In this document: positions 3,782 to 33,680 of the stretch, in pieces
Position numbering within the stretch: position 1 is the stretch's first letter
How the letters are laid out: each line of letters starts with the position of its first letter
IMG/VR virus record: IMGVR_UViG_3300047319_001509
Location: 1-38,321 of that record
Length of the DNA: 38,321 bases
Direction: 5' to 3' (one strand)
Origin: a virus
The notes under the pieces: generated by a model
The model's database searches: none
What the model saw: the letters and a program-made list of their open reading frames with translations, nothing else
Told to the model about the DNA's origin: nothing
Made by a program: the position numbers and the translations under genes

Positions 3782-4039
3782 ATGTACGTAAGGCAAGAAG
3801 AAAGCGGCGTGGCAAAACCACCATTTGTGCAAGAAGGGCGCCGCCGGCCATTGACGGATCGACAGTTGGAAGTCCTGCGCCTGATCGCTCAGGGCCTCGC
3901 CACGGACGAAATTGGCCTGCGGTTGAAGGTCAGCAAGAACACTGTCCGCGGCTATGTTCGCGTGATTCTCCTGAAACTCGGCGCCAAGGATCGCGCCCAC
4001 GCGGTCGCCATCGCGATGCGCGAGGGACTGCTGCGATGA
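3782..4039 (+). CDS. LuxR-type (GerE) HTH DNA-binding protein (85 aa)
   Basis: The start at 3782 is chosen because agggaga sits seven bases upstream; longer starts lack a ribosome site. Residues 22-85 are a full LuxR C-terminal HTH: RPLTDRQLEVLRLIAQG, then LATDEIGLRLKVSKNTVRGYV and a third helix with LGAKDRAHAVAIA. No receiver or autoinducer domain precedes it, so it is a stand-alone effector domain of the size of short phage-borne GerE proteins. It is coupled by an ATGA to the next gene and is divergent from an XRE regulator, suggesting a regulatory pair. Confidence 0.85.
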   Translation: MYVRQEESGVAKPPFVQEGRRRPLTDRQLEVLRLIAQGLATDEIGLRLKVSKNTVRGYVRVILLKLGAKDRAHAVAIAMREGLLR

Positions 4040-4299
4040 GCAGCGAGCAAGCGGACACCGCCATCGAGCTGGTCGATAAGATCGCGCCGCTGCTGGCCGG
4101 CTATCCGCCGCACGTGCAGAGCGCGGTGCTGGCCGATCTCATGGCGATGTGGCTCGCCGGCCATCAGGATTTTGCGAATCACGAAAGCGATGACGTGAAA
4201 AAACTGCGCAAGCAGTTGTTTGGTCTATGGTGCAAGACGGTGCTCGATCTCGTCCCGGTCAACGTCGCGAGGTTGCTGGAGCGGGCGCAGAAGCAATAA
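4036..4299 (+). CDS. Hypothetical protein, paralogue of the 5900-6223 gene (87 aa)
   Basis: Starts at the ATG overlapping the LuxR-type stop. It is helical and soluble, with no known motif. Its middle (IAPLLAGYPPHVQSAVLADL, then AGHQ) matches the middle of the protein encoded at 5900-6223 (IAPILQGGDPDVVGIVLAVL, then AGFQ), so the two look like distant paralogues. The last 41 bases overlap the 3' end of the converging gene at 4259. Confidence 0.65.
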   Translation: MSSEQADTAIELVDKIAPLLAGYPPHVQSAVLADLMAMWLAGHQDFANHESDDVKKLRKQLFGLWCKTVLDLVPVNVARLLERAQKQ

Positions 4300-4507
4300 G
4301 GGTGTCCCGGCGAATTTGCTTGCTGACGTTCTCCAGAATGTCGGGGATCGCCAGCGTGGTGGCGGCGTCGGCCTGACAGGAGAAGCCGTCGCCACGATCG
4401 CCGCCCAGGACGATCACCAGCACGCCGCCGCCGGTCTGATCGGTGATGCCGACTTCGGCCCGCACGCGGCTAGTGATGTCATCGTATTTGCCCGGTCCAA
4501 ATGCCAT
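4259..4507 (-). CDS. Conserved phage hypothetical protein (82 aa)
   Basis: A compact alpha/beta protein: FGPGKYDDITSRVRAEV, then strand VLVIVLGGDRGDGFSCQA, then ATTLAIPDILENVSKQIRRD. I recognise this arrangement (FGPGKYDD...GG..GDGFSCQ) as a small protein frequent in alpha- and betaproteobacterial phages, of unknown function. Its 3' end overlaps the rightward gene ending at 4299 by 41 bases in opposite orientation; both look real from their protein sequence. It is the last gene of a leftward run coming from 6223. Confidence 0.7.
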   Translation of the reverse strand: MAFGPGKYDDITSRVRAEVGITDQTGGGVLVIVLGGDRGDGFSCQADAATTLAIPDILENVSKQIRRDTLIASAPAPATSRR

Positions 4508-4522
4508 TGGTCATTCCTCGGT

Positions 4523-4966
4523 TCATTGCATCGCTCGCGGCTCGACCAAGAACACGGCATTGACCGCCAAGCCACCGGGCTTGCCGTCGATGGTGAATTC
4601 CTCGATCCACGTGCGGCCGGGCTCCTTGATGCCGCAGGCACGCAGCACGGCAGCAAATTTGGTGGGGTGCGGCGCCGCGCCCGGTTTATTGTCCACGGAC
4701 ATCGACAGGTGCAGGCACAAGCCCGCCGGCTGTTCCTCGTAGCTGATCGCAAGCCGGTAGCCGATCGGCAACAGGACTTGCTCCGAGATCGGCCGATGGA
4801 AATCGCCACGCGGGCCTTTGCGGCGTTCCTCCAGCGTGACGACGCCGGTTGATTGGTCGATCGCGGTGGCGGCGAGCACATCGAACGGGATCACCTTCTT
4901 GCGCGCACGCGCCAGCGCGGCCTTGATGGCGTCTTGCTCCTTCACGCCGATGATCAGCACGCTCAT
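4523..4966 (-). CDS. Hypothetical protein (147 aa)
   Basis: The start at 4966 is chosen because the ATG overlaps the stop of the upstream DUF3846-like gene; an upstream extension reads as low-quality arginine-rich shadow. The product is an alpha/beta protein beginning with a helix (EQDAIKAALARARKKVIPFDVLA), with a middle LPIGYRLAISYEEQPAGLCLHLSMSV and an acidic C-terminal part. No family was recognised. It is the downstream partner of the DUF3846-like gene. Confidence 0.7.
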   Translation of the reverse strand: MSVLIIGVKEQDAIKAALARARKKVIPFDVLAATAIDQSTGVVTLEERRKGPRGDFHRPISEQVLLPIGYRLAISYEEQPAGLCLHLSMSVDNKPGAAPHPTKFAAVLRACGIKEPGRTWIEEFTIDGKPGGLAVNAVFLVEPRAMQ

Positions 4967-5322
4967 AGCTCGGCCATCCATTCGTCGTCGCCAAACAGGA
5001 CCACCACCGGCCCGACGAGATAATCCGGGCTGGACGGGCGGTCGCCCGCCGGCTGTTTCTTGAACTGCGGTAGCTGGCGCAAGGCAGCGTCCCAGCACAG
5101 ATGGGCGAGCGCGTTGTAGGGCAGTTGCTTGCGCTTGCCGTCCTCGTCGCAGAACGCCACGCAACGTCGCCACTTGCCGCGATAATTGATCGCGTTGAAA
5201 TAGGGCACGGCCTCAATGTAGCCGCCGACCGCCTTCTGCAAAGCCGGCAGATCGGGCGGCCCGGCAAAGTCTGTAGCCACCGGGTCGGCGCCGGGCGCAA
5301 TGACCAGCATGGTGCCTTTCAT
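4963..5322 (-). CDS. DUF3846-like phage protein (119 aa)
   Basis: The order of blocks fits DUF3846: an N-terminal strand (MLVIAPGADP), LPALQKAVGGYIEAVPYF, then CVAFCDEDGKRKQLPYNALA, and a closing GPVVVLFGDDEW. The family is small, common in phages and plasmids, and of unknown biochemical role. It overlaps its neighbours on both sides by ATGA junctions (4963-4966 and 5319-5322), placing it inside a co-translated leftward operon. Confidence 0.75.
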   Translation of the reverse strand: MKGTMLVIAPGADPVATDFAGPPDLPALQKAVGGYIEAVPYFNAINYRGKWRRCVAFCDEDGKRKQLPYNALAHLCWDAALRQLPQFKKQPAGDRPSSPDYLVGPVVVLFGDDEWMAEL

Positions 5323-5903
5323 GGCTGCTCCCCCAAAACCACTATTTGCACTCCGATCGCGGACGCTATCTGAGCCGGCGTGTGCGTTGTCTCCCGCATG
5401 GCGCCGGTGACCTCATGCCATTGTCTGTCGTCGCTACAGGATGGCGGCATCAGATGCAGCGCGTCGGTGGTGCTAAAGCGCACGAGCCCCGGCATCCGCT
5501 TGGCTTCGAGGAACGCGCGCAGCGCCGGATCACGATGAGCATCCCGAAATCCAGGGTCGCACCATATCTGCACGACCTCGATCTCGGTTCGCGCGCCGGT
5601 CGCGTTGTCTACGAGCGTGACGAAATCCGGCATCATGTCGATGCAATAGTGGGCACGATCGGGACGCCGCAGGCTCTCGGTGCCCGGCTCATGCAGGAGC
5701 CAGCGGCAGGACCAGAAATGGCATTCACGTGGAAAGGCTGACTGTCGATAGACCGCGCAGCCCTTGCCGACTTTCTGATGCTTGCAACGCTCGTTCGCCG
5801 TCTTTGCCAGCGAACGCACCGGCAGCAGCTTGCAGCACAATTGACAATCGCCGCAACGCCGCGGCCCCTTGCGATCAGCGTCGTAGAGCGTGCGCTCTGT
5901 CAC
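5319..5903 (-). CDS. YkgJ-like cysteine-cluster protein (194 aa)
   Basis: The N-terminal 70 residues hold eight cysteines in the order CGDCQLCCKLLPV (C17, C20, C23, C24), C40, C49 (GCAVY), C61 and C66 (ECHFWSC). This matches the YkgJ/zinc- or iron-chelating cysteine-cluster domain. The remaining 120 residues are a soluble alpha/beta region without recognised motifs. The family binds metal; its function in phages is not known. It sits between the DUF3846-like gene and the gene at 5900, overlapping both by four bases. Confidence 0.75.
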   Translation of the reverse strand: MTERTLYDADRKGPRRCGDCQLCCKLLPVRSLAKTANERCKHQKVGKGCAVYRQSAFPRECHFWSCRWLLHEPGTESLRRPDRAHYCIDMMPDFVTLVDNATGARTEIEVVQIWCDPGFRDAHRDPALRAFLEAKRMPGLVRFSTTDALHLMPPSCSDDRQWHEVTGAMRETTHTPAQIASAIGVQIVVLGEQP

Positions 5904-6223
5904 TTGAATCGCCCCGACTTATCGGCCGTCTTGATTCTGTCGCTTGTGATCTCGCCACGCGCCAGGGCGTCATCGAGGGCTTTGGCTTCTATGGGAATGA
6001 ACAGGTTTACGGAATCGATATGTTGAAGCAGCATTTTAGTTTGCAGGCTTACGATGTCTGTTGGGGTGCCCGCCGACAACTGAAAGCCGGCAATCCCCCT
6101 CGCGACGAGAACGGCGAGAACGATGCCGACAACGTCAGGATCGCCACCTTGCAATATCGGAGCAATACGATCGAGCAGCGCGTTCGCCGCAGCTATTTCG
6201 TCTTCCATGCCAATCTCGGTCAT
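5900..6223 (-). CDS. Hypothetical protein, first gene of leftward operon (107 aa)
   Basis: The start at 6223 has GGAGGT seven bases upstream; a longer frame to 6382 runs through the G-rich intergenic repeats and is rejected. The protein is helical and soluble. Its middle (IAPILQGGDPDVVGIVLAVL) resembles that of the 4036-4299 product, so the two are likely paralogues. It is the promoter-proximal gene of the 6223-4259 leftward operon, so the promoter should lie in the repeat-rich region just upstream. Confidence 0.7.
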   Translation of the reverse strand: MTEIGMEDEIAAANALLDRIAPILQGGDPDVVGIVLAVLVARGIAGFQLSAGTPTDIVSLQTKMLLQHIDSVNLFIPIEAKALDDALARGEITSDRIKTADKSGRFK

Positions 6224-23236: not shown

Positions 23237-23424
23237 ATTGTTGATTAGTGTTTGATTGATTGCGTGTGTTGTGTGTGATGTGTGATGTGTGATGTGGTGA
23301 TGTGTGCGTGTTGTGTGTGTTTGATTGATTGATTGAATGTGTGCGTGTTATTGTGTGTGTGCTTGTTCGTTGTTGTGTGTGATGCGGTGATGCTGGTTTG
23401 TTTGATTGATGCGAGTATGATGAT
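23237..23424. repeat. T/G-rich low-complexity tract
   Basis: About 188 bases with only about eight C on the plus strand, made of recurring TGTG, TGTGATG and TTGATTGA words. It carries no gene. The complementary strand is C/A-rich and G-poor, which resembles a Rho-utilisation site for leftward transcripts. Slipped repeats of this kind are also prone to replication errors. Confidence 0.75.
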
Positions 23425-23634
23425 ATGACGTGCCAGGCATGCAGACGAAGACGTGAGTTGTTGTTGATGCTCTACGCGCGCGTGGTGCGTGGTGCGTCGA
23501 TAGATGTGAGGCCAGGATGGCTGGGGGTGGGCGGCAAAGGTACTGTGAGCCCTCCGGGATGGCGCGGGGACCGCGCGACCGCGGCTTATAAACGTATTTC
23601 CAACCTTCGCATTCGGCCTAAATTTACCGGATGA
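23425..23634 (+). CDS. Small hypothetical protein (69 aa)
   Basis: The N-terminus MTCQACRRRRELLLMLYARV has a C-x2-C and a basic helix, a pattern of short phage proteins often found near tail or packaging genes. The rest is glycine/arginine-rich. The stop overlaps the ATG of the ParB-domain gene, which supports translation. No clear ribosome site precedes it, since it emerges from the T/G tract. Confidence 0.45.
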   Translation: MTCQACRRRRELLLMLYARVVRGASIDVRPGWLGVGGKGTVSPPGWRGDRATAAYKRISNLRIRPKFTG

Positions 23635-24281
23635 GGCGACCGCGGATGACCGAGTTTCGAAACCGGATCGTAGAATTGCGGCGCGTGCGGGCCTCCGAGC
23701 TGCGGCGCAATCCGCGGAATTGGCGCCAACACCCCGAGGGCCAGCGCTCTGCGCTCACCGAATTGCTCGGCACGGTCGGCTTCGTGGGCGCCGGAATAGG
23801 ACGCGACACGCCGGAAGGGGTCGAATTGATTGATGGGCACCTGCGCGCCGACCTCGCAGATGACAGCGAGATGCCGGTTTTGATCGTAGACCTCACCGAC
23901 GACGAGGCAGCCAAGGTGCTGGCGACATTCGACCCGCTCTCGGCCCTCGCGATACCGGACGTGGACGCCTTCAAGTTGTTGTTGACCGGCATCGAGCTGG
24001 ACGAGCATGCCGAGCTGCGCAAGATGGTCACCGATCTGACCCGCAAGTATGCGGAGCGTGAAGGCAGCAAGGAGGATGACCGGCTCGACGTGCCCGGCAT
24101 GGCCCTGCAGCCGCATGAGCACTACGATTATTTGGTGGTGCTCGCCTCGACCACGCACGAATGGAATGTGCTGTGCGATCGGCTCGACCTCCCGGCGATC
24201 AAGCGCAGGAACCGGATGGGCACGGCGCACGCGATCCGCGCCGACAAGCTGATCGAGCTGATGGCGAGCAAGAAAAAATGA
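23631..24281 (+). CDS. ParB/Srx-domain protein of modification-like cassette (216 aa)
   Basis: Residues about 12-105 show the ParB N-terminal/sulfiredoxin fold: RRVRASELRRNPRNWRQHPE, QRSALTELLGTVGFVGAG, VELIDGHLRADLADDSE and VLIVDLTDDEAAKVLATFD. The box GHLRA replaces the usual G-x-x-R-x of nucleotide-binding ParB members (GERR). In phages this domain is often joined to a DNA methyltransferase. Here it is separate, and its C-terminal 110 residues are a different alpha/beta region with no methylase motif. It overlaps the glycosyltransferase by an ATGA. A CTPase, DNA-binding or nicking role is possible. Confidence 0.75.
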   Translation: MRRPRMTEFRNRIVELRRVRASELRRNPRNWRQHPEGQRSALTELLGTVGFVGAGIGRDTPEGVELIDGHLRADLADDSEMPVLIVDLTDDEAAKVLATFDPLSALAIPDVDAFKLLLTGIELDEHAELRKMVTDLTRKYAEREGSKEDDRLDVPGMALQPHEHYDYLVVLASTTHEWNVLCDRLDLPAIKRRNRMGTAHAIRADKLIELMASKKK

Positions 24282-25045
24282 AATATCAGATCGTCATCCC
24301 ATCGCGCGGACGGCCGCACAACGCCAAGACCATGCTGTCGCTGATGCCGGACGCATGGATCTGCGTCGATGAGCGCGAGCGCGAGGACTACAAGCCGCAC
24401 GTCCCCAAGAAGCAGCTCCTATTGCACCCGCCATCGACCGGGGCGCCGGCGGCGCGCAACTGGATCATCAACAACGTGAAGGCGCCGTGCCTGATCCAGA
24501 GCGACGACGATCTGGTGGGCATCAGGAGCAACATCGGTTCCAAGCGTTTCATCACCGATCCCGACGAGGTCATGGCCATCATCGAGAATGCGGTGACGTG
24601 CTGCGCCGATCTCGGCCTCACCACGTTCTGTTGGTCGCGCACCGCCAACACGACAGTCGTGCGACCGGAGGAAAAGCCGATCGTTCCGACGCAACAGGTG
24701 TACGGCTGTTGGGGTGTGATGAACAAGGCACGCGCGCGGCAGTACGATGAGACGCTGCGCAGCCGCGCCGATCTTGATTGGACGATGCGGACATTGCTCG
24801 AAGACCGCATCGTGCTGGCGGACATTCGGTATTATTTCGACTTTGGTAGATCGTTCAGCGGGAGCGGCGGACAGTCGGGGCTGGTCACACCGGAGGACTT
24901 CAAGCGCTCGACCGAGATCGTGGCGAAGCGGTGGGGCACGGCCATCAGCTTTCGCCGGCCCGGCTACATGAAGCAGGGCGACACCGTGGCAGGCGTGCCG
25001 CATGTGCGGCGGCAAAGCACACTGGCCAAAACAGGGAGCAAATGA
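24278..25045 (+). CDS. TET-associated-type glycosyltransferase (255 aa)
   Basis: A GT-A glycosyltransferase of the TAGT/GREB1-like type: MKYQIVIPSRGRP opens the Rossmann strand, WICVDEREREDY follows, then TGAPAARNWIINNV (RN at 60-61), and LIQSDDDLVG with the metal-binding DDD at 76-78. VYGCWGVMNKARARQYDE and LDWTMRTLLEDRIVLADIRY complete the domain. It lacks membrane segments, so it acts in the cytosol, as enzymes that add sugars to DNA bases do. The sugar and acceptor cannot be read. It is coupled to a ParB-domain gene and followed three bases later by a sulfotransferase. Confidence 0.8.
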   Translation: MKYQIVIPSRGRPHNAKTMLSLMPDAWICVDEREREDYKPHVPKKQLLLHPPSTGAPAARNWIINNVKAPCLIQSDDDLVGIRSNIGSKRFITDPDEVMAIIENAVTCCADLGLTTFCWSRTANTTVVRPEEKPIVPTQQVYGCWGVMNKARARQYDETLRSRADLDWTMRTLLEDRIVLADIRYYFDFGRSFSGSGGQSGLVTPEDFKRSTEIVAKRWGTAISFRRPGYMKQGDTVAGVPHVRRQSTLAKTGSK

Positions 25046-25048
25046 GAA

Positions 25049-25663
25049 ATGGCGTTTGTCACTGAGAAAACATTGTTCATCCACGTCCAGAAGACCGGCG
25101 GCATGAGCGTGCGCGAAATCCTGTACCGCTGCACCCCGACAGGCCACGAGAGCGGGGACGCGCAAGGCGAACGGCATCTCGGCTTGCCCGAGCTGCGCGC
25201 GCGGCATCCCGGCATCGACAGCGGGCGCATCGTGTTCGGCTTCGTGCGCCACCCGGTTGATTGGATCGTGTCGCGGTGGTCGTTCGCATGCGCCAGCGGC
25301 TTCCCGATCCATGTCCAGCACCGCGACACCGCGGCGCAAGTCTGGATGGCGTGTTGTTGGTCGTATCGTTTCGAGGAATTTGTGGACCGATACCTTGAGC
25401 GGTTCGCCGGCATCGCCACGCAAACCATGTTCCAAAAGCTCGGCCTGTGGAGCGACCGGCCGGCCGATCGCATCGGCAAGACCGAGACGCTGGCCGACGA
25501 CCTCGCAAAAATTCTCGATGACGCTGGCGAGCGGTGGAGCCGGCCCAACACGGCGCCGCACCGCAATGCCGATGAACCAGGGCTGCGACCGCAGGTGAGC
25601 GCGGGCGTTCGGCAGCGGATCATGGACGCGGAACGGCGGCTTTGTGACCGGTTCGGCTATTGA
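25049..25663 (+). CDS. PAPS-dependent sulfotransferase (204 aa)
   Basis: The two PAPS-binding elements are present: the 5'-phosphosulfate loop LFIHVQKTGGMSVREIL (9-25) and the 3'-phosphate element FGFVRHPVDWIVSRW (63-77). This is the sulfotransferase family 2 pattern, which transfers sulfate from PAPS to a hydroxyl or amino group of a sugar or protein. A conserved Trp/Phe-rich middle (WMACCWSYRFEEFVDRYLER) follows. It starts three bases after the glycosyltransferase stop, so both probably work on one product. The substrate is unknown. Confidence 0.85.
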   Translation: MAFVTEKTLFIHVQKTGGMSVREILYRCTPTGHESGDAQGERHLGLPELRARHPGIDSGRIVFGFVRHPVDWIVSRWSFACASGFPIHVQHRDTAAQVWMACCWSYRFEEFVDRYLERFAGIATQTMFQKLGLWSDRPADRIGKTETLADDLAKILDDAGERWSRPNTAPHRNADEPGLRPQVSAGVRQRIMDAERRLCDRFGY

Positions 25664-25854: not shown

Positions 25855-26115
25855 TTAGCACCCCCCCTCGCCCTCCTGCGGGTGGCGCCTATGGTGCGGC
25901 GGCTTGGCCGGTATCGGGGGAATCGGGGCCGGTCGCGGGCCGCTTTCCCGCCCGATCACCCGCCCATCGGGGCCGTACAGCGTCGTGGTGCCTTGGGTAT
26001 CGGTCAGGGCGCGACCAGCAGGGCGCCCGGCGGCATCGTAGAATTGGCGTTGCTGCGCCTCCGCAACAGGCGTCATCAGCAGCGCGAGCGCCGTAGTTAT
26101 TGCAATCAGTCTCAT
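25855..26115 (-). CDS. Small secreted protein (86 aa)
   Basis: A classic signal peptide (MRLIAITTALALLMTPVAEA, cleavage near 21) precedes FYDAAGRPAGRALTDTQGTT and LYGPDGRVIGRES, two turns of a G-R-x-G/DG-R beta-strand repeat, and a Pro/His-rich tail. Short secreted proteins of this kind are frequent in Bradyrhizobium-like genomes. It would act in the periplasm or outside. The start has caggagcaag upstream, a leader shared by other genes of this block. Confidence 0.75.
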   Translation of the reverse strand: MRLIAITTALALLMTPVAEAQQRQFYDAAGRPAGRALTDTQGTTTLYGPDGRVIGRESGPRPAPIPPIPAKPPHHRRHPQEGEGGC

Positions 26116-26669
26116 CGTCCTTGCTCCTGTTTGATTGTCCAAAGCCTGTAAGCTTCCTCGACATACGGGTCCGGCTCTGTCGGTTCCGGCACCAGCACGG
26201 CGCCTTCGTCGCGGAAATGTTGTAGACCGCGGCCCATCCGCCGGCCGGCGAGCGTGTGCTGATCGTTCGCCCAATCGGGAATGGTTGGCGCGTAGTCCTC
26301 CAGCATCGAGCGCAGGCCGATCGCGGCGCCGAAATGGCAGCCGGCGCGCGACTTGGGAGCGCGGCACATCATCCGAATGGCGTTGCCGATCATCAGCCGC
26401 GCCTCTCCGATTGATTTGCTGTATCGCTCCTTCGATTGCGCGATGGCGGTGCTGACGAATGGCACCACCCAAGGCGCGGCGAGCGTGTCGAGGTCTTCGT
26501 GGCAGATGACCTCCAATCGATTGCACACCATCGAGTGCAGCGGCTTCGACGTGTGCATCAGCTCAACGGCGAATTCCATCGCCTCGCGCTCCATGCCGCG
26601 GCGGATGCATTTCTGCATGGCCGAAACGCAAGCCATCGAGGGAAGGTTGTTGTTGGTCGCGGGTATCAT
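26112..26669 (-). CDS. Protein resembling RarA/MgsA C-terminal domain (185 aa)
   Basis: The sequence follows the collar domain of RarA/MgsA-like clamp-loader proteins, but without the AAA ATPase part: ACVSAMQKCIRRGMEREAME, then NRLEVICHEDLDTLAAPWVV (compare R-R-L-x-x-x-A-x-E-D-I-G), then IRMMCRAPKSRAGC (compare APKSN). This is inference from order of blocks and needs a profile search. A stand-alone form might bind single-strand-binding protein or compete with host RarA. It overlaps the secreted protein gene by four bases and is preceded by a terminator. Confidence 0.5.
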   Translation of the reverse strand: MIPATNNNLPSMACVSAMQKCIRRGMEREAMEFAVELMHTSKPLHSMVCNRLEVICHEDLDTLAAPWVVPFVSTAIAQSKERYSKSIGEARLMIGNAIRMMCRAPKSRAGCHFGAAIGLRSMLEDYAPTIPDWANDQHTLAGRRMGRGLQHFRDEGAVLVPEPTEPDPYVEEAYRLWTIKQEQGR

Positions 26670-27481: not shown

Positions 27482-27817
27482 TCAGCCCGAGAACGGCTCA
27501 TCATCAATCGGGCCGACCGGTTCGTGCAGCGGCGTCAGAATGTGCCGCACCGCACCGGACACGCGCCGCGCCCTGTTGCGCGCTCGCGTGGCGCTGTTGC
27601 TGGCGCGCAGCGCGGCGAGATTGGCGAAGCCCATCGCGCGGGCCGCGACCTCGCGGAATGCCATTTCAGGCAGCGGGGCGGTGGCGGCATGGACACCGAT
27701 GCGGCCAACGTAGTCGATGCCGTTCTCGGCACGCCGCACGCTGCCGACATAGCGCCGGCCTTGCTTGATCGGCGTCTGCCCGTTGGAGGTTTGTGAAGTC
27801 ATCAGACGGAAACGCAT
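27482..27817 (-). CDS. Hypothetical protein (111 aa)
   Basis: aaggagc upstream of the ATG at 27817. The centre has RRYVGSVRRAENGIDYVGRI, PLPEMAFREVAARAMGFANL and AALRASNSATRARNRARRVS, with a DNA-binding-like basic helix at the end of the domain. No motif was recognised. It is the last gene of the second accessory unit. Confidence 0.6.
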   Translation of the reverse strand: MRFRLMTSQTSNGQTPIKQGRRYVGSVRRAENGIDYVGRIGVHAATAPLPEMAFREVAARAMGFANLAALRASNSATRARNRARRVSGAVRHILTPLHEPVGPIDDEPFSG

Positions 27818-27831
27818 TGGTTGATTGCTCC

Positions 27832-28032
27832 TTATCGGCCGGTTAGCGGCTTGTCGGCGGTGGTGGTGGTGGGGACCGGCATGGCCGACCAAACAAGCGC
27901 ACCAACCCAACCGAGGATCGTCCAGCCGAGCAACAGGTTCAGCAGGAAGATCGGCATCAGGTGTTGGTGCCCTCGAAAGTTCGCGACCACAGCAGGCAGT
28001 AGGTAAATGATGATCAGCATAAGCGTTAACAT
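27832..28032 (-). CDS. Superinfection immunity protein, Imm-like (66 aa)
   Basis: Two transmembrane segments: LTLMLIIIYLLPAVVANF (about 2-19) and IFLLNLLLGWTILGWVGALV (28-47), joined by RGHQHLMP. The pattern Y-x-L-P, R-G-H, LNLLLGWT-x-x-GW matches the superinfection immunity family named after T4 Imm, which sits in the inner membrane and blocks DNA entry of related phages. caggagcaag upstream gives a strong start. Its presence suggests lysogen protection. Confidence 0.85.
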   Translation of the reverse strand: MLTLMLIIIYLLPAVVANFRGHQHLMPIFLLNLLLGWTILGWVGALVWSAMPVPTTTTADKPLTGR

Positions 28033-29122: not shown

Positions 29123-29806
29123 TCAGTATCGATCGCCGCCGGATGCTCGATCGCGCAGCCAATCGGTGAGGTTCATCACCTTGCGGCGCCGCTGTTCCGC
29201 CGGCACGTCCGCGGCCCACGGATCGTGATAGGTCAGCTTCGCTTTCGGCGGCTCCTGCACCATGCCGTGTGGCTTGCGCGGCTTTGCCGCCGGCTTGCTT
29301 GATTGGAGCGCTGGACGAGGCGCCAGCGCGGGGCGCCCCATCCGACGCGTGCGCTTGCGCTCGATATGTGAGGGGCGCTTGTCCGCGTAGGAATGCTCAA
29401 GCGCCGCCTTGAGTCCGGCTTGCTTCAAGCCGAAATCCCGATAACCCTCCTGCAGCACCGCGTAGTAGTAATCCGAAGGCGGATAGATGCCGGTCGAGTT
29501 CATCGTGTAGAGCATGATCTCCGTCTCACCATCCGGCAGGCCAGCAATCTCGACATACTCTTTCGCGTACATGCCGCCACCATCCGGTCGGTAGCCTTCA
29601 TAGCGATCGAGCGCAGCCTCGCACGCTGGCGTGATTCGCCAGATGCCGCCGCGGCATTCGAAGCCGGGCGCGTGGATCACATCGGCAACGCCGCGAAAAA
29701 CGAGTCGGGTGTCGCGAAGGATAAGCGGGCCGAGCGGTTCCGCGGCCGGGCAACGCCGCGACATCTGATCCTTGTGAAGGTTTGACCCGTAGGCGAAATA
29801 CAGCAC
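29123..29806 (-). CDS. Gamma-glutamylcyclotransferase-like (GGCT/AIG2) protein (227 aa)
   Basis: Starts with LYFAYGSNL (2-10), the glycine-loop signature of the GGCT fold, followed by LILRDTRLVFRGVADVIHAP, GGIWRITPACEAALDRYEGY with the likely catalytic Glu (E70), and KEYVEI, VMLYTMNS-type strands. The C-terminal 90 residues are a basic, proline-rich tail (RMGRPALAPRPALQSSKPAA). The GGCT fold cyclises gamma-glutamyl or related amine bonds. It follows an amidoligase gene, so one enzyme may make and the other break such bonds. The residue match is clear; the substrate is not known. Confidence 0.85.
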   Translation of the reverse strand: MLYFAYGSNLHKDQMSRRCPAAEPLGPLILRDTRLVFRGVADVIHAPGFECRGGIWRITPACEAALDRYEGYRPDGGGMYAKEYVEIAGLPDGETEIMLYTMNSTGIYPPSDYYYAVLQEGYRDFGLKQAGLKAALEHSYADKRPSHIERKRTRRMGRPALAPRPALQSSKPAAKPRKPHGMVQEPPKAKLTYHDPWAADVPAEQRRRKVMNLTDWLRDRASGGDRY

Positions 29807-29840: not shown

Positions 29841-29870
29841 GGAAAAAAGAGAACCGCCCTTAGAGGGCGG
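29841..29870 (-). terminator. Intrinsic terminator of the amidoligase gene
   Basis: Minus strand: CCGCCCT (29870-29864), loop CTA-type, AGGGCGG (29860-29854), then TTCTCTTTTTT. It begins inside the stop region of the amidoligase gene and ends 35 bases before the next ATG, so the downstream cyclotransferase gene is expressed by readthrough or its own promoter. Confidence 0.8.
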
Positions 29871-30894
29871 CTGACCGTTGCGCGCGCGACCGCAGGAAGG
29901 CAGCTTCCTCGGGGGTCGCGTCGATGACCTCGAAAAGGCCGTCAAGCGTGGCCGGCACCGTGGCGCCCGGCGCAACTTGTGCGACGAGAAAAAACCGCTC
30001 CTTGCCGCGCGACTTGACCACGCGAACCTCCAAGCCTGCGACCGCGGCTTGACGTTTGATTGAAAGCGCGCGGAACCCATGCGCGGCCCTGATTTCTTCG
30101 GCCGTCGCGCCTTCCGGCTTGGCGACCGCCTCCGCAACCGCACGCGCCTTTGCGTCGAGTCGGGAGAAATCGCGGGCGATGGCCGGGCCGGCGCCGGTCT
30201 TGCCGGCTTTGGCCGCCGCAACTAAGCGCAGGCAAATCGTGATCCAATTGATTGCCTTGTCCGCGTTTACCGTTCCGGCATGTTGGCGAAATTCAACCGT
30301 CCGCGGGCCGGAACGATTAGCGTCTTTCGAATGCAGCCCCTCGATATTAACCTTGTGATACCGGCCGGCATGTGCGCCCGATGCGCGCGCAAGAGCGGTG
30401 GAAAGCGCCCGCACAGAAGTAGCCGAATCGATTGCCTCCTTATCGGTAAGTTTGACCGACTTGCAATAAGTCGCATCGTTCCCGCGCCGGCTTGGCGGCA
30501 TGATTTGGTCGAGCGAGTCTTCGAATCGGCCGTATAGTTTCAGGAGGTCTTGAAAGAAACCGATGCTATTTGTAGGGGCGCCGACGTGAACGTGAAAACC
30601 GGTCGTGGTATTGACGGTGCAACCCGCCGCGTTAAGCGCTTGTGCAATTTTGGCGACTTGCTCTAAGCCGGCATCGCCGGAGAGAACCGGGGCGACAAAT
30701 TCGAAACCGTAGCCGTTGCCCCGAATCGAGCCGTCGCGAACGATCTTCCAAGAGTCGCTAGGGCAATTGCCGAAACCGCTGTAAACCGGAAGGCCCGAAA
30801 TTTCGGAAACGCGGCGGGCGATTGGCTCGCGATCGAGGGGCGAAAGTATTTCGAATTCGGCGCCGAATGTAAGAGTAGAGAGAGAGGGGTGCAT
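29860..30894 (-). CDS. Putative amidoligase with C-terminal DUF3489-like domain (344 aa)
   Basis: The start at 30894 has aggag six bases upstream. The COOH-NH2 ligase (amidoligase_2) motifs appear in order: FGAEFE (10-15), RDGS (53-56), GFEFV (63-67), HVHVG (101-105) and TVEFRQHAGT (199-208). The residues serve ATP and metal binding in the glutamine-synthetase-like fold. Residues about 257-304 (KPEGATAEEIRAAHGFRALS, IKRQAAVAGLEVRVVK) form a DUF3489-like winged-helix module. It should ligate an amine to a carboxylate, maybe making a peptide tag or a wall modification. It pairs with a GGCT gene, as proposed for phage amidoligase operons in the literature on this family. Confidence 0.8.
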   Translation of the reverse strand: MHPSLSTLTFGAEFEILSPLDREPIARRVSEISGLPVYSGFGNCPSDSWKIVRDGSIRGNGYGFEFVAPVLSGDAGLEQVAKIAQALNAAGCTVNTTTGFHVHVGAPTNSIGFFQDLLKLYGRFEDSLDQIMPPSRRGNDATYCKSVKLTDKEAIDSATSVRALSTALARASGAHAGRYHKVNIEGLHSKDANRSGPRTVEFRQHAGTVNADKAINWITICLRLVAAAKAGKTGAGPAIARDFSRLDAKARAVAEAVAKPEGATAEEIRAAHGFRALSIKRQAAVAGLEVRVVKSRGKERFFLVAQVAPGATVPATLDGLFEVIDATPEEAAFLRSRAQRSAAL

Positions 30895-30916
30895 TTTAGG
30901 CTCCTGGGGGGTGGGG

Positions 30917-30986
30917 CTCCGTGCCCGACCGTCCTGAAAACAGTAGCAACCGCCTGCACGCAGTAAAGCCAAACTTATCATTTTTT
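30917..30986 (-). promoter_or_regulatory. Promoter-like repeat, copy B
   Basis: Seventy bases nearly identical to copy A, with TTTACT-N16-TACTGT on the minus strand, lying 22 bases before the amidoligase ATG. The same intergenic region also holds TATAAT on the plus strand (30991-30996), a possible -10 of a rightward late promoter before the small terminase gene. Confidence 0.65.
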
Positions 30987-31066: not shown

Positions 31067-31804
31067 ATGGCCGAAAATGAGCCTTCGAAAACCGAAGCCG
31101 GGACCGTTTCGACAGCTTTGGCGATGTCGCTCCTATTGATGGAGCACCCCGACGAATTGAGAAAATTGCAGCGCGCCGGCTACATCAAGCCGATCGGCAA
31201 GGACAGTTGGCGGCTGGCCGATCTCATCCGCGGCTTCGCCAAGGCCGCGCGCGACACCGCGCAGCTCACCGATAGCGCCACGCTCGCACGTTGTTGGGGC
31301 CTCGCCGTCTCGCGCATCTCGCAATTTGTTGCTGAAGGCTGGCTGAAGGCCGCGGGGCGCAAGGGCCAATACAATTGGTTTGAAGCCAATCAGAGTTATG
31401 TCCGCTGGCTGCGCGATCAGGACCGCAAGACATCGAAATCCGCCAGCGACAGCCGCATGCGCGATGCCAAGGCACACGAGATCGAGGTTCGCACCCGGCA
31501 GCGGCTCAGTCGTTTGGTCCCACTCGAAATCTACGAGGAAATGATCGACAGCTTCGCGGGCGTGGTAAGAAGCGAGTTCGCGGGATTGCCGGCGGCAGCC
31601 ACCCGCGACCTGACGCTGCGCCGGATCATCGAGCGGGAGGTCAATGCAAGACTTCGTAGGATCGCAGAGCACGCACTGGCACAGGCCGTTCGCTTGGAGA
31701 CGGTTCGCGGGCTTGATGATGCCATCGGAGCCGATGGAGCCGGACCAGTGGGCGGCGGCCAACAGGACATATCCGGCAACGGCAGCGGTTCCGGGGCCGC
31801 GTGA
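31067..31804 (+). CDS. Terminase small subunit-like protein (245 aa)
   Basis: Directly before the large terminase. Residues about 25-100 show two helix-turn-helix-like segments (LRKLQRAGYIKPIGKDSWRL, SATLARCWGLAVSRISQFVA, then EGWLKAAGRKGQYNWFEAN) followed by a helical coiled-coil tail. A DNA-binding N-terminus plus helices fits Nu1-type small terminases, which recognise the packaging site. The overlap of about 89 bases with the large subunit is unusual and reflects the start chosen for that gene. Confidence 0.65.
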   Translation: MAENEPSKTEAGTVSTALAMSLLLMEHPDELRKLQRAGYIKPIGKDSWRLADLIRGFAKAARDTAQLTDSATLARCWGLAVSRISQFVAEGWLKAAGRKGQYNWFEANQSYVRWLRDQDRKTSKSASDSRMRDAKAHEIEVRTRQRLSRLVPLEIYEEMIDSFAGVVRSEFAGLPAAATRDLTLRRIIEREVNARLRRIAEHALAQAVRLETVRGLDDAIGADGAGPVGGGQQDISGNGSGSGAA

Positions 31805-33680
31805 TCCGCTCCTAACGCCCTACGTGGTCGAGCCCGAGCGCGCCATCGCCAGCGGCGCCTACAAGCGCGTCGTCATGGTGATGGGCGCGCAATCCGGCAA
31901 GAGCGAAGCAATGCTCGATGTGGCCGGGCAGCGGCTCGACCAGCGGCCGGGGCCGATCCTCTATGTCGGCCCCAACAAGCAATTCCTCACCGAGCAATTC
32001 GAGCCGCGCGTGATGGCGCTGCTGGACGAGGCGCCAACCCTCATGGCGAAGGTGGCGCGCGGCAAGCGCATGACCAAGACCCGCAAGGTGGTGGCCGGCG
32101 TGCCGTTCCGCTTGGCGCATTCGGGATCTAGCACCGCACTCAAATCCGATCCGGCAGTCCTCGCGTTGGTCGATGAATACGACGAGATGCGCGACAACGT
32201 GAATCAGCAGGGCGGGCCGCTTGGCCTGGTCGAGCGCCGCGGCGACACCTTCGCTGACTTTGTTTGTGTCGTGACCTCCACGCCCAAACGCGGCAGAGTG
32301 GCCGCGACCAAGGATGAAATTTCCGGTCTGTGCTTCTGGGACATCGCCGTGGCCGAGGACATCGAGAGTCCGATCTGGCAGCTCTGGCAGCAAGGCACGC
32401 GGCATCACTGGTGCTGGCCATGTCCCTGGTGCGGCGAATTTTTCGTGCCGCGCTTCAACCTCCTGCGCTATCCGCTCAAGGCCCGGCCGCTCGAAGCCGC
32501 ACGCGAAACATTCTTGGAATGCCCGCACTGTGCCGGCGTCATCGAGGACCAGCACAAGGCCGACATGAACGCGCGCGGGCGCTATGCGGCGCCGGGCCAG
32601 AACATCGACAAGAGCGGCGTGGTGCATGGCGCGCCGGCCGAAAGCAAAACCATCTCGTTCTGGGTGTCGGGGCTGGCATCACCATTCGTCACGTTCGGAG
32701 AGCGGGTCGCGGTGCTGGTCGAGGCGCAGCAGTCGGGCGACGACGCGATGGTGCAGCAGGCCATCAACGCCGGCTTTGGCGAGCTGTATTCACCCGGCGG
32801 CGGCGAGGTTCCCGAGTGGGTCGAGATCAAGGAGAAATCCCGACAGGCCACCTACAAGCGCGGCGAAGTGCCGGCGGACGTGCTCTATCTGACGCTGGCG
32901 TGCGACGTGCAGCGGCATTCGATTCCGTGGGTGCTGCGCGGATGGGGCGCGCGCGCGACCTCATGGCTGATCGAGTACGGGTATCTGCGCGGCGACACCG
33001 CCGAGGAAGACATCTGGCTCGCGCTGGCCGATCTGGTGGTGCAGCCGGTCGGCGGCTTGCCGATCAGGTTGGCATTCATCGATTCGGGATTCCGGCCCGG
33101 CAAGATCGACATGCTGCCGCTCAATCGCGTTTACGAGTTCTGCCGGCGCTTCCCACGGCGCGTGCGCCCCACCAAGGGGTCGAGCACCCCGATGCGAACC
33201 CCGCTGATCCTGAACAAGATCGAGGTCAGCCGCAAAGACGGGCGCGCGGCCAAGTACGGGCTCGACCTCGTGCGGCTCGACACCGATCACTGGAAAAGCT
33301 GGGTACATGAAAGACTTAGGTGGCCCGACGCCCACCTCGGCGGCTGGCATGTGTTCCGCGGCGTGGACGATGATTACTGCCACCAGCTCGTCAGCGAGGC
33401 GCGCATCAAACAGCCAACCGGGCGCGTCGAATGGGTCCAGCGATCGCGCGACAACCACTTTTTTGACTGCGAGGCGATGCAGGCAGCCGCCGGCTATTTG
33501 CTGAACGTGCAGCGCATCCCATTGCAAAACAAGAAAGATGGGACTAAGGAGGAAATTGGCAGGCAGCCGGAAACCCAAACCGAGACAGTGGCTTCGACCG
33601 AAGCGCCGCCCATTCCATCGCCATTATCGCGCACCCGCAGGGTCAGGCGCATTATCAGATCGAGCTATCTCGGGGCCTAA
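31716..33680 (+). CDS. Terminase large subunit, GpA family (654 aa)
   Basis: The start at 31716 is chosen because EPDQWAAANRTYP matches the usual N-terminal GpA region; an earlier in-frame ATG at 31644 would add 24 residues. Walker A-like GAQSGKSE (57-64) and Walker B VDEYDE (152-157) form the packaging ATPase. The nuclease half has LACDVQ, IDSGF and a conserved C-terminal WxQRxRDNHFFDCE region. The zinc-ribbon-like CPWCGEFF and CPHC insert sits between. It cuts concatemeric DNA and drives it into the head. The family is that of lambda. Confidence 0.9.
   Translation: MMPSEPMEPDQWAAANRTYPATAAVPGPRDPLLTPYVVEPERAIASGAYKRVVMVMGAQSGKSEAMLDVAGQRLDQRPGPILYVGPNKQFLTEQFEPRVMALLDEAPTLMAKVARGKRMTKTRKVVAGVPFRLAHSGSSTALKSDPAVLALVDEYDEMRDNVNQQGGPLGLVERRGDTFADFVCVVTSTPKRGRVAATKDEISGLCFWDIAVAEDIESPIWQLWQQGTRHHWCWPCPWCGEFFVPRFNLLRYPLKARPLEAARETFLECPHCAGVIEDQHKADMNARGRYAAPGQNIDKSGVVHGAPAESKTISFWVSGLASPFVTFGERVAVLVEAQQSGDDAMVQQAINAGFGELYSPGGGEVPEWVEIKEKSRQATYKRGEVPADVLYLTLACDVQRHSIPWVLRGWGARATSWLIEYGYLRGDTAEEDIWLALADLVVQPVGGLPIRLAFIDSGFRPGKIDMLPLNRVYEFCRRFPRRVRPTKGSSTPMRTPLILNKIEVSRKDGRAAKYGLDLVRLDTDHWKSWVHERLRWPDAHLGGWHVFRGVDDDYCHQLVSEARIKQPTGRVEWVQRSRDNHFFDCEAMQAAAGYLLNVQRIPLQNKKDGTKEEIGRQPETQTETVASTEAPPIPSPLSRTRRVRRIIRSSYLGA

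Follow-up and report, generated by a model that had tools for sequence, protein, structure and literature searches.

A recurrent phage module of ParB-like, TAGT-family glycosyltransferase and sulfotransferase genes that may modify phage DNA

Introduction

Among the glycosyltransferases encoded by phages, the TAGT of phage T6 puts glucose onto glucosylated hmC in DNA, and many phages have solitary TAGTs without an assigned role, which have been listed as probable novel transferases (PMC13216743). In the present work we studied a compact cassette of three genes in an IMG/VR viral DNA record of 38,321 nt (the whole stretch analysed, here called the window). An initial annotation had read the cassette as a ParB/Srx-like domain, a GT-A glycosyltransferase and a PAPS-type sulfotransferase, and had proposed that together they could place a sulfated sugar on phage DNA, or else modify a host glycan such as LPS or a Nod factor. 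The locus thus raises the question of whether these genes form a functional unit, what this unit would make, and on which acceptor.

Results

The cassette consists of three open reading frames on the plus strand, at 23631-24281, 24278-25045 and 25049-25663. Their coordinates were checked, and the joints are as first described, with an ATGA overlap at 24278-24281 and a three-base gap at 25046-25048. The first frame opens at 23631; since its homologs begin at the internal ATG at 23646 (MTEFRNRIV...), the true gene is probably 23646-24281. All three genes are evidently real and under selection, because dN/dS between relatives is 0.05-0.19 for each of them (purifying selection). The features considered are as follows.

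23646 to 24281, plus strand: ParB/Srx-like protein with an N-terminal ParB-like domain (DGHLR motif) and a C-terminal partner domain (PHROG 498/620, Spo0J profile match, alignment A5)
24090 to 24263, plus strand: C-terminal domain of the ParB-like protein (VPGMALQPHEHYDYLVVLA...), an invariant block in alignment A5
24278 to 25045, plus strand: TAGT-family GT-A glycosyltransferase (GT), 255 aa (PF20691, PHROG 842, structure model, Foldseek)
24503 to 24511, plus strand: DDD, GT residues 76-78, putative metal/NDP-sugar site (alignment A4)
25049 to 25663, plus strand: PAPS-type sulfotransferase (ST1), 204 aa (PF03567, PHROG 3347, conserved in 9 loci)
25091 to 25102, plus strand: KTGG, ST1 residues 15-18, predicted 5'-phosphosulfate-binding loop (invariant in 9 sequences, alignment A8)
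25241 to 25279, plus strand: FVRHPVDWIVSRW, predicted 3'-phosphate-binding element, including FVRHP (ST1 residues 65-69) (alignment A8)
26112 to 26669, minus strand: stand-alone RarA/MgsA C-terminal-like protein, as a rule the fourth gene of the module (PF12002 match with E=0.001, under the family cut-off)

The glycosyltransferase was recognized by Pfam TAGT PF20691 with 48.4 bits (cut-off 27.5) and by PHROG 842, 'beta-glucosyl-HMC-alpha-glucosyltransferase' (4e-16). Its predicted structure (pLDDT 74, pTM 0.76) was matched by Foldseek to viral TAGTs (TM about 0.66-0.69) and to GT2-like GT-A enzymes; TAGTs, including a T-even-type beta-glucosyl-HMC-alpha-glucosyltransferase, were the best viral fold matches. 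The DDD lies at residues 76-78 as annotated, and in an alignment of 19 GT sequences D77 and D78 were invariant and D76 nearly so. A profile search of solved structures with the GT gave no credible sequence relative, and tblastn searches of named phages with the window GT and sulfotransferase, and of plasmids with the GT, returned nothing; Microbacterium phages were reached only when a distant GT relative was used as the query.

The sulfotransferase carries both the KTGG and the FVRHP elements noted at the outset, and it passes the Sulfotransfer_2 model PF03567 marginally (22.8 bits, cut-off 22.0), while its Bradyrhizobium homolog reaches 25.2 bits. PHROG 3347, 'galactose-3-O-sulfotransferase', matched it at 7e-7, and the VR.PV.W..SRW core of the 3'-phosphate element was invariant in the 9 ST1 sequences.

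For the first gene, the ParB/Srx-like assignment draws on matches to PHROG 498 (DNA methyltransferase, in its ParB-like N-terminal part, 2.5e-6) and to PHROG 620 (ParB-like, 1e-3), in addition to a profile match to Spo0J (1vz0, E=0.005). The window protein had no Pfam hit, and a distant Microbacterium member scored above the ParB_N cut-off. Among the phage genes scanned, no ParA-type ATPase family exceeded its cut-off. The most conserved part of the protein is the C-terminal domain (PHEHYDY...). This domain predicts a GT partner almost perfectly: where it is present, a GT lies at most 3.5 kb downstream in 27 of 28 viral loci, and where it is absent, in 0 of 50; these counts include a few near-duplicate rows and two truncated ones that were classed by inspection. 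The lone exception, L098, has the C-terminal domain on a ParB-like gene followed by a sulfotransferase-like gene and an APS kinase (3992-6088), with no GT on its 13.5 kb fragment. Among the 50 relatives without the domain, 18 are fused to DPPY/SPPY-type DNA methyltransferases, and this kinship suggests that the N-terminal domain would target DNA. Since AlphaFold modelled the ParB-like protein poorly (pLDDT 54), it is from co-occurrence that we infer a docking of the GT by the C-terminal domain.

Two variants of this architecture were seen. At L019 (9917-10360), an HNH-like segment takes the place of the N-terminal ParB-like domain and the C-terminal partner domain is retained. In L112, L114, L115, L125, L128 and L132-L134, ParB relatives bear a different conserved C-terminal domain (EPKNEKP...RHLVFDYEMIADFYAHS), which perhaps has a partner of its own.

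The order ParB-GT was found in all 19 distinct GT loci first collected, with GT identity down to 44-48%, and again in further loci; the adjacency is therefore not peculiar to this contig but is repeated in many distant phages. When divergent phages were compared, the ParB-like, GT and RarA-C-like genes were the only ones widely shared, any other gene of the window phage being present in at most four of ten genomes. The RarA-C-like protein, which is also matched by PHROG 16866 and 33349, is encoded near the ParB-GT pair in 24 of 30 loci. Cultured Microbacterium phages carry ParB-like, GT, UDP-glucose dehydrogenase-like and RarA-C-like genes in that order, and their GTs scored 52-57 bits with a profile built in the present analysis. 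In Streptococcus phage Javan291, a prophage, a ParB-like gene and, after it, a GT scoring 44 bits lie immediately before the terminase genes. As judged from these comparisons, the cassette genes form a conserved, mobile unit.

The position 3' of the GT, in most cases bounded on its far side by the RarA-C-like gene, behaves as a slot whose contents vary. A sulfur enzyme occupies it in 23 of 30 loci: ST1 in 9, a second sulfotransferase-like family (ST2) in 12 and an SQD1-like protein in 2. Along its whole length, the SQD1-like protein matches structures of plant SQD1, a UDP-sulfoquinovose synthase (E=5e-90). ST2 has an NSGSTW motif and weak Sulfotransfer_3 matches; its assignment as a sulfotransferase, drawn mainly from the motif and from APS-kinase neighbours, is weaker than that of ST1. 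Profile comparison gave no link between ST1 and ST2, and a profile search of solved structures with either gave no match to a solved sulfotransferase. APS-kinase genes occur in three loci, beside ST1 in L008 and beside ST2 in L046 and L098; that of L098 is a bona fide APS kinase (E=2e-45), and those of L008 and L046 are APS kinase-nucleotidyltransferase fusions. Other slot genes encode UDP-galactopyranose mutase (UGM), an RGP/UDP-arabinopyranose-mutase (UAM)-like protein and UDP-glucuronate decarboxylase. Slot content clusters on the GT tree, with 7 changes where shuffling gives 15.4 on average, and some swaps have taken place. Around 48 ParB loci without the C-terminal domain, none of ST1, ST2, the SQD1-like protein, GT or RarA-C was found. 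Because three kinds of sulfur-sugar enzyme converge on one slot, which is the strongest evidence, it is a well-supported prediction that the product of the module is a sulfated or sulfonated sugar or glycan.

Two further groups of genes near the cassette were considered and set aside. A small protein whose start resembles a signal peptide and which contains YGxDGRV repeats (25855-26115, minus strand) was ruled out as a general acceptor, being in the slot of only 7 of 30 loci. An Amidoligase_2 gene (29123-29806, minus strand) adjoins a GGACT/AIG2-like gene (29860-30981, minus strand); the two are kept in closer relatives and missing from many module loci, so they were left out of the system, and they look like a separate peptide- or metabolite-ligating pair.

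The window is contained with more than 99.7% identity, over its entire length, in a record of 59,166 bp (G001). Because its two ends share about 290-310 bases (92% in the alignment, which contains an indel), the phage genome, of about 58.9 kb, appears to be complete and either circular or circularly permuted. Terminal repeats, suggestive of completeness, were also present in two other records (G011 and G012). The soil phage is temperate and contractile-tailed, with genes for a tyrosine integrase, a YqaJ/RecE nuclease, an MT-A70 methyltransferase, a lambda-type portal, a gpA-type terminase and a Mu-like contractile tail. The same gene order is present in a Bradyrhizobium sp. BRP22 prophage, with 92% identity in the GT and 72% in the sulfotransferase. 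In the genus of this host the GT was found in 1 of 196 genomes, the one already known, and its prevalence in hosts is therefore low. Upstream of the ParB-like gene, at 23240-23450, there is a TG-rich stretch of low complexity with strong GC skew, which was missing from the two close relatives inspected.

A source of hydroxylated bases was sought in the records that bear the module. In 19 of them, three seemingly complete, neither Tet_JBP (PF12851) nor the thymidylate-synthase family (PF00303) was matched. A Pfam scan of nearly all predicted genes of the complete phage detected no dioxygenase and no member of the TET or thymidylate-synthase families; the initial statement that the window has no TET or base-hydroxylase gene is thus confirmed and extends to the complete phage. 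Furthermore, in the ten genomes compared, the divergent phages had no candidate hydroxylase gene in common outside the module. PADLOC models of known anti-phage defence systems gave no match for the ParB-like, GT, sulfotransferase or RarA-C-like proteins. A literature search of open-licence papers found none on the combination of ParB, GT and sulfotransferase.

Discussion

We consider, at slightly better than even probability, that the best explanation is a phage hypermodification module in which a ParB-targeted GT and a sulfotransferase act on phage DNA. The ParB-like protein would be the targeting subunit, with an N-terminal domain of the kind fused to phage DNA methyltransferases and a C-terminal domain that would dock the GT. 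The TAGT-family GT would move a sugar from an NDP-sugar to the acceptor, and in the step that presumably follows, the PAPS-dependent sulfotransferase would sulfate the transferred sugar with host PAPS; some relatives carry an APS kinase of their own. The target would be the phage's own DNA, most likely its bases, and the bulky, negatively charged mark could protect against restriction or other nucleases.

DNA as the acceptor is a modestly favoured choice. The TAGT family, the kinship of the ParB-like domain with DNA methyltransferases and the RarA-C-like neighbour all argue for it, while the missing base hydroxylase counts against it. The original proposal of a sulfated sugar on phage DNA therefore stands in one part, since the slot enzymes make a sulfated glycan likely; for the other part, DNA is the best fit to the neighbouring genes, with no source of hydroxylated bases found. 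A precedent is Shewanella phage Thanatos, which has a pentose on cytosine with a hydroxyl source that its authors left unexplained (PMC12838424), but Thanatos encodes a protein of the thymidylate-synthase family. A bolder form of the proposal is possible, and we advance it tentatively, with more doubt than belief: guided by the ParB-like protein, the TAGT would glycosylate DNA bases on which no TET or hydroxymethylase has acted beforehand, and the sugar would be sulfated or be delivered as sulfoquinovose, giving a sulfated-sugar DNA.

Other acceptors were weighed against the same data. Prophages commonly carry O-antigen-modifying glycosyltransferases and Sulfotransfer_2 enzymes act usually on glycans, so the GT and the sulfotransferase might alter host LPS, capsule or a Nod-factor-like molecule, blocking superinfection or masking the lysogen. 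The Bradyrhizobium host of the closest prophage and the sugar-nucleotide enzymes in the slot are in keeping with this. However, no flippase or lipid-linked GT was present among those genes of the complete phage that were scanned, and the constant partners are ParB-like and RarA-C-like proteins. Moreover, lytic Microbacterium phages and a Streptococcus prophage, whose hosts have neither LPS nor Nod factor, possess the ParB-GT pair too. With Gram-positive hosts included, LPS or Nod factor, as suggested initially, is unlikely as a general target, and we regard a surface glycan of any of these kinds as an unlikely acceptor. Decoration of a virion or host protein is a little less probable again: the enzymes look soluble, the ParB-GT pair is often beside packaging or structural genes, and the exported repeat protein is a conceivable substrate in its 7 loci, but that protein is missing from the other 23, and no structural gene is common to the divergent phages that bear the module.

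Action on tRNA, the nucleotide pool or a signalling nucleotide would be suited by the lack of a hydroxylated-base source, since a ready-made hydroxyl, for example that of ribose, would then serve, and ParB/Srx folds include small-molecule enzymes. The nearest relatives of this ParB-like domain are nevertheless parts of DNA methyltransferases, and we consider such an acceptor improbable. That the genes stand together merely through phage kinship, without a joint function, is very improbable and was already disfavoured by the data: much of the region is indeed common to close relatives, but divergent phages share only the module genes, the coupling to the GT is specific to one domain (27/28 against 0/50), and one slot has received three kinds of sulfur enzyme.

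Compared with known systems, the proposed hypermodification module resembles T-even phages in its GT, which shares the Pfam family (PF20691), PHROG 842 and, by model, the GT-A fold of the T6-type TAGT. T-even phages make hmC by a thymidylate-synthase-family enzyme and use an alpha- or beta-glucosyltransferase; no such synthase was found in the module-bearing records, and the module adds the ParB-like and sulfur enzymes. In TET and TAGT cytosine hypermodification, a phage TAGT-family GT likewise stands near DNA-linked proteins, but the 19 module-bearing records had no TET/JBP family match. Cytosine arabinosylation in phages (RB69, NP; 5-ara-dC) also employs a dedicated GT with adjoining sugar-nucleotide enzymes, and furanose mutases (UGM, RGP/UAM) and UDP-glucuronate decarboxylase are encoded in some module loci. 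RB69-type phages rely on a 5-hydroxy-dCMP synthase that belongs to the thymidylate-synthase family (PMC13390438), which was not found in the module-bearing records, and sulfation is not described for them.

The ParB-domain DNA methyltransferases of PHROG 498 have a related N-terminal domain, the nearest viral ones being about 50% identical; there it is fused to a catalytic methyltransferase, whereas in the module it is joined to a small C-terminal domain and the GT is separate. The right arm of Microbacterium cluster EC (ParB-like, glycosyltransferase, UDP-glucose dehydrogenase, AAA-ATPase) has the same four-part order in cultured phages, and its glycosyltransferase and UDP-glucose dehydrogenase have been noted (PMC7302621). 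Its slot, however, holds a UDP-glucose dehydrogenase-like gene without a sulfotransferase, and its GT is only distantly related to that of the window, without a Pfam TAGT hit. In gtrABC-like O-antigen conversion there are a membrane flippase and a lipid-linked GT, both absent among the scanned genes of our phage.

The module supplies a specific context for the solitary TAGTs (PMC13216743), in which the ParB C-terminal domain marks the glycosyltransferase partner. Sulfated or sulfonated sugars would be a kind of phage modification that was not found described in the open-licence literature. Because related modules exist in cultured Microbacterium phages and the same cassette in a Bradyrhizobium prophage, the proposal is directly testable.

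Two minor observations concern the remainder of the phage DNA. The end-overlap region of G001 corresponds to 27667-27953, where the two copies differ by an indel of about 24 bases, possibly a variable repeat or an assembly difference. The open reading frames of the small (31067-31804) and large (31644-33680) terminase subunits overlap by 161 bases, and the true start of the large subunit may lie later.
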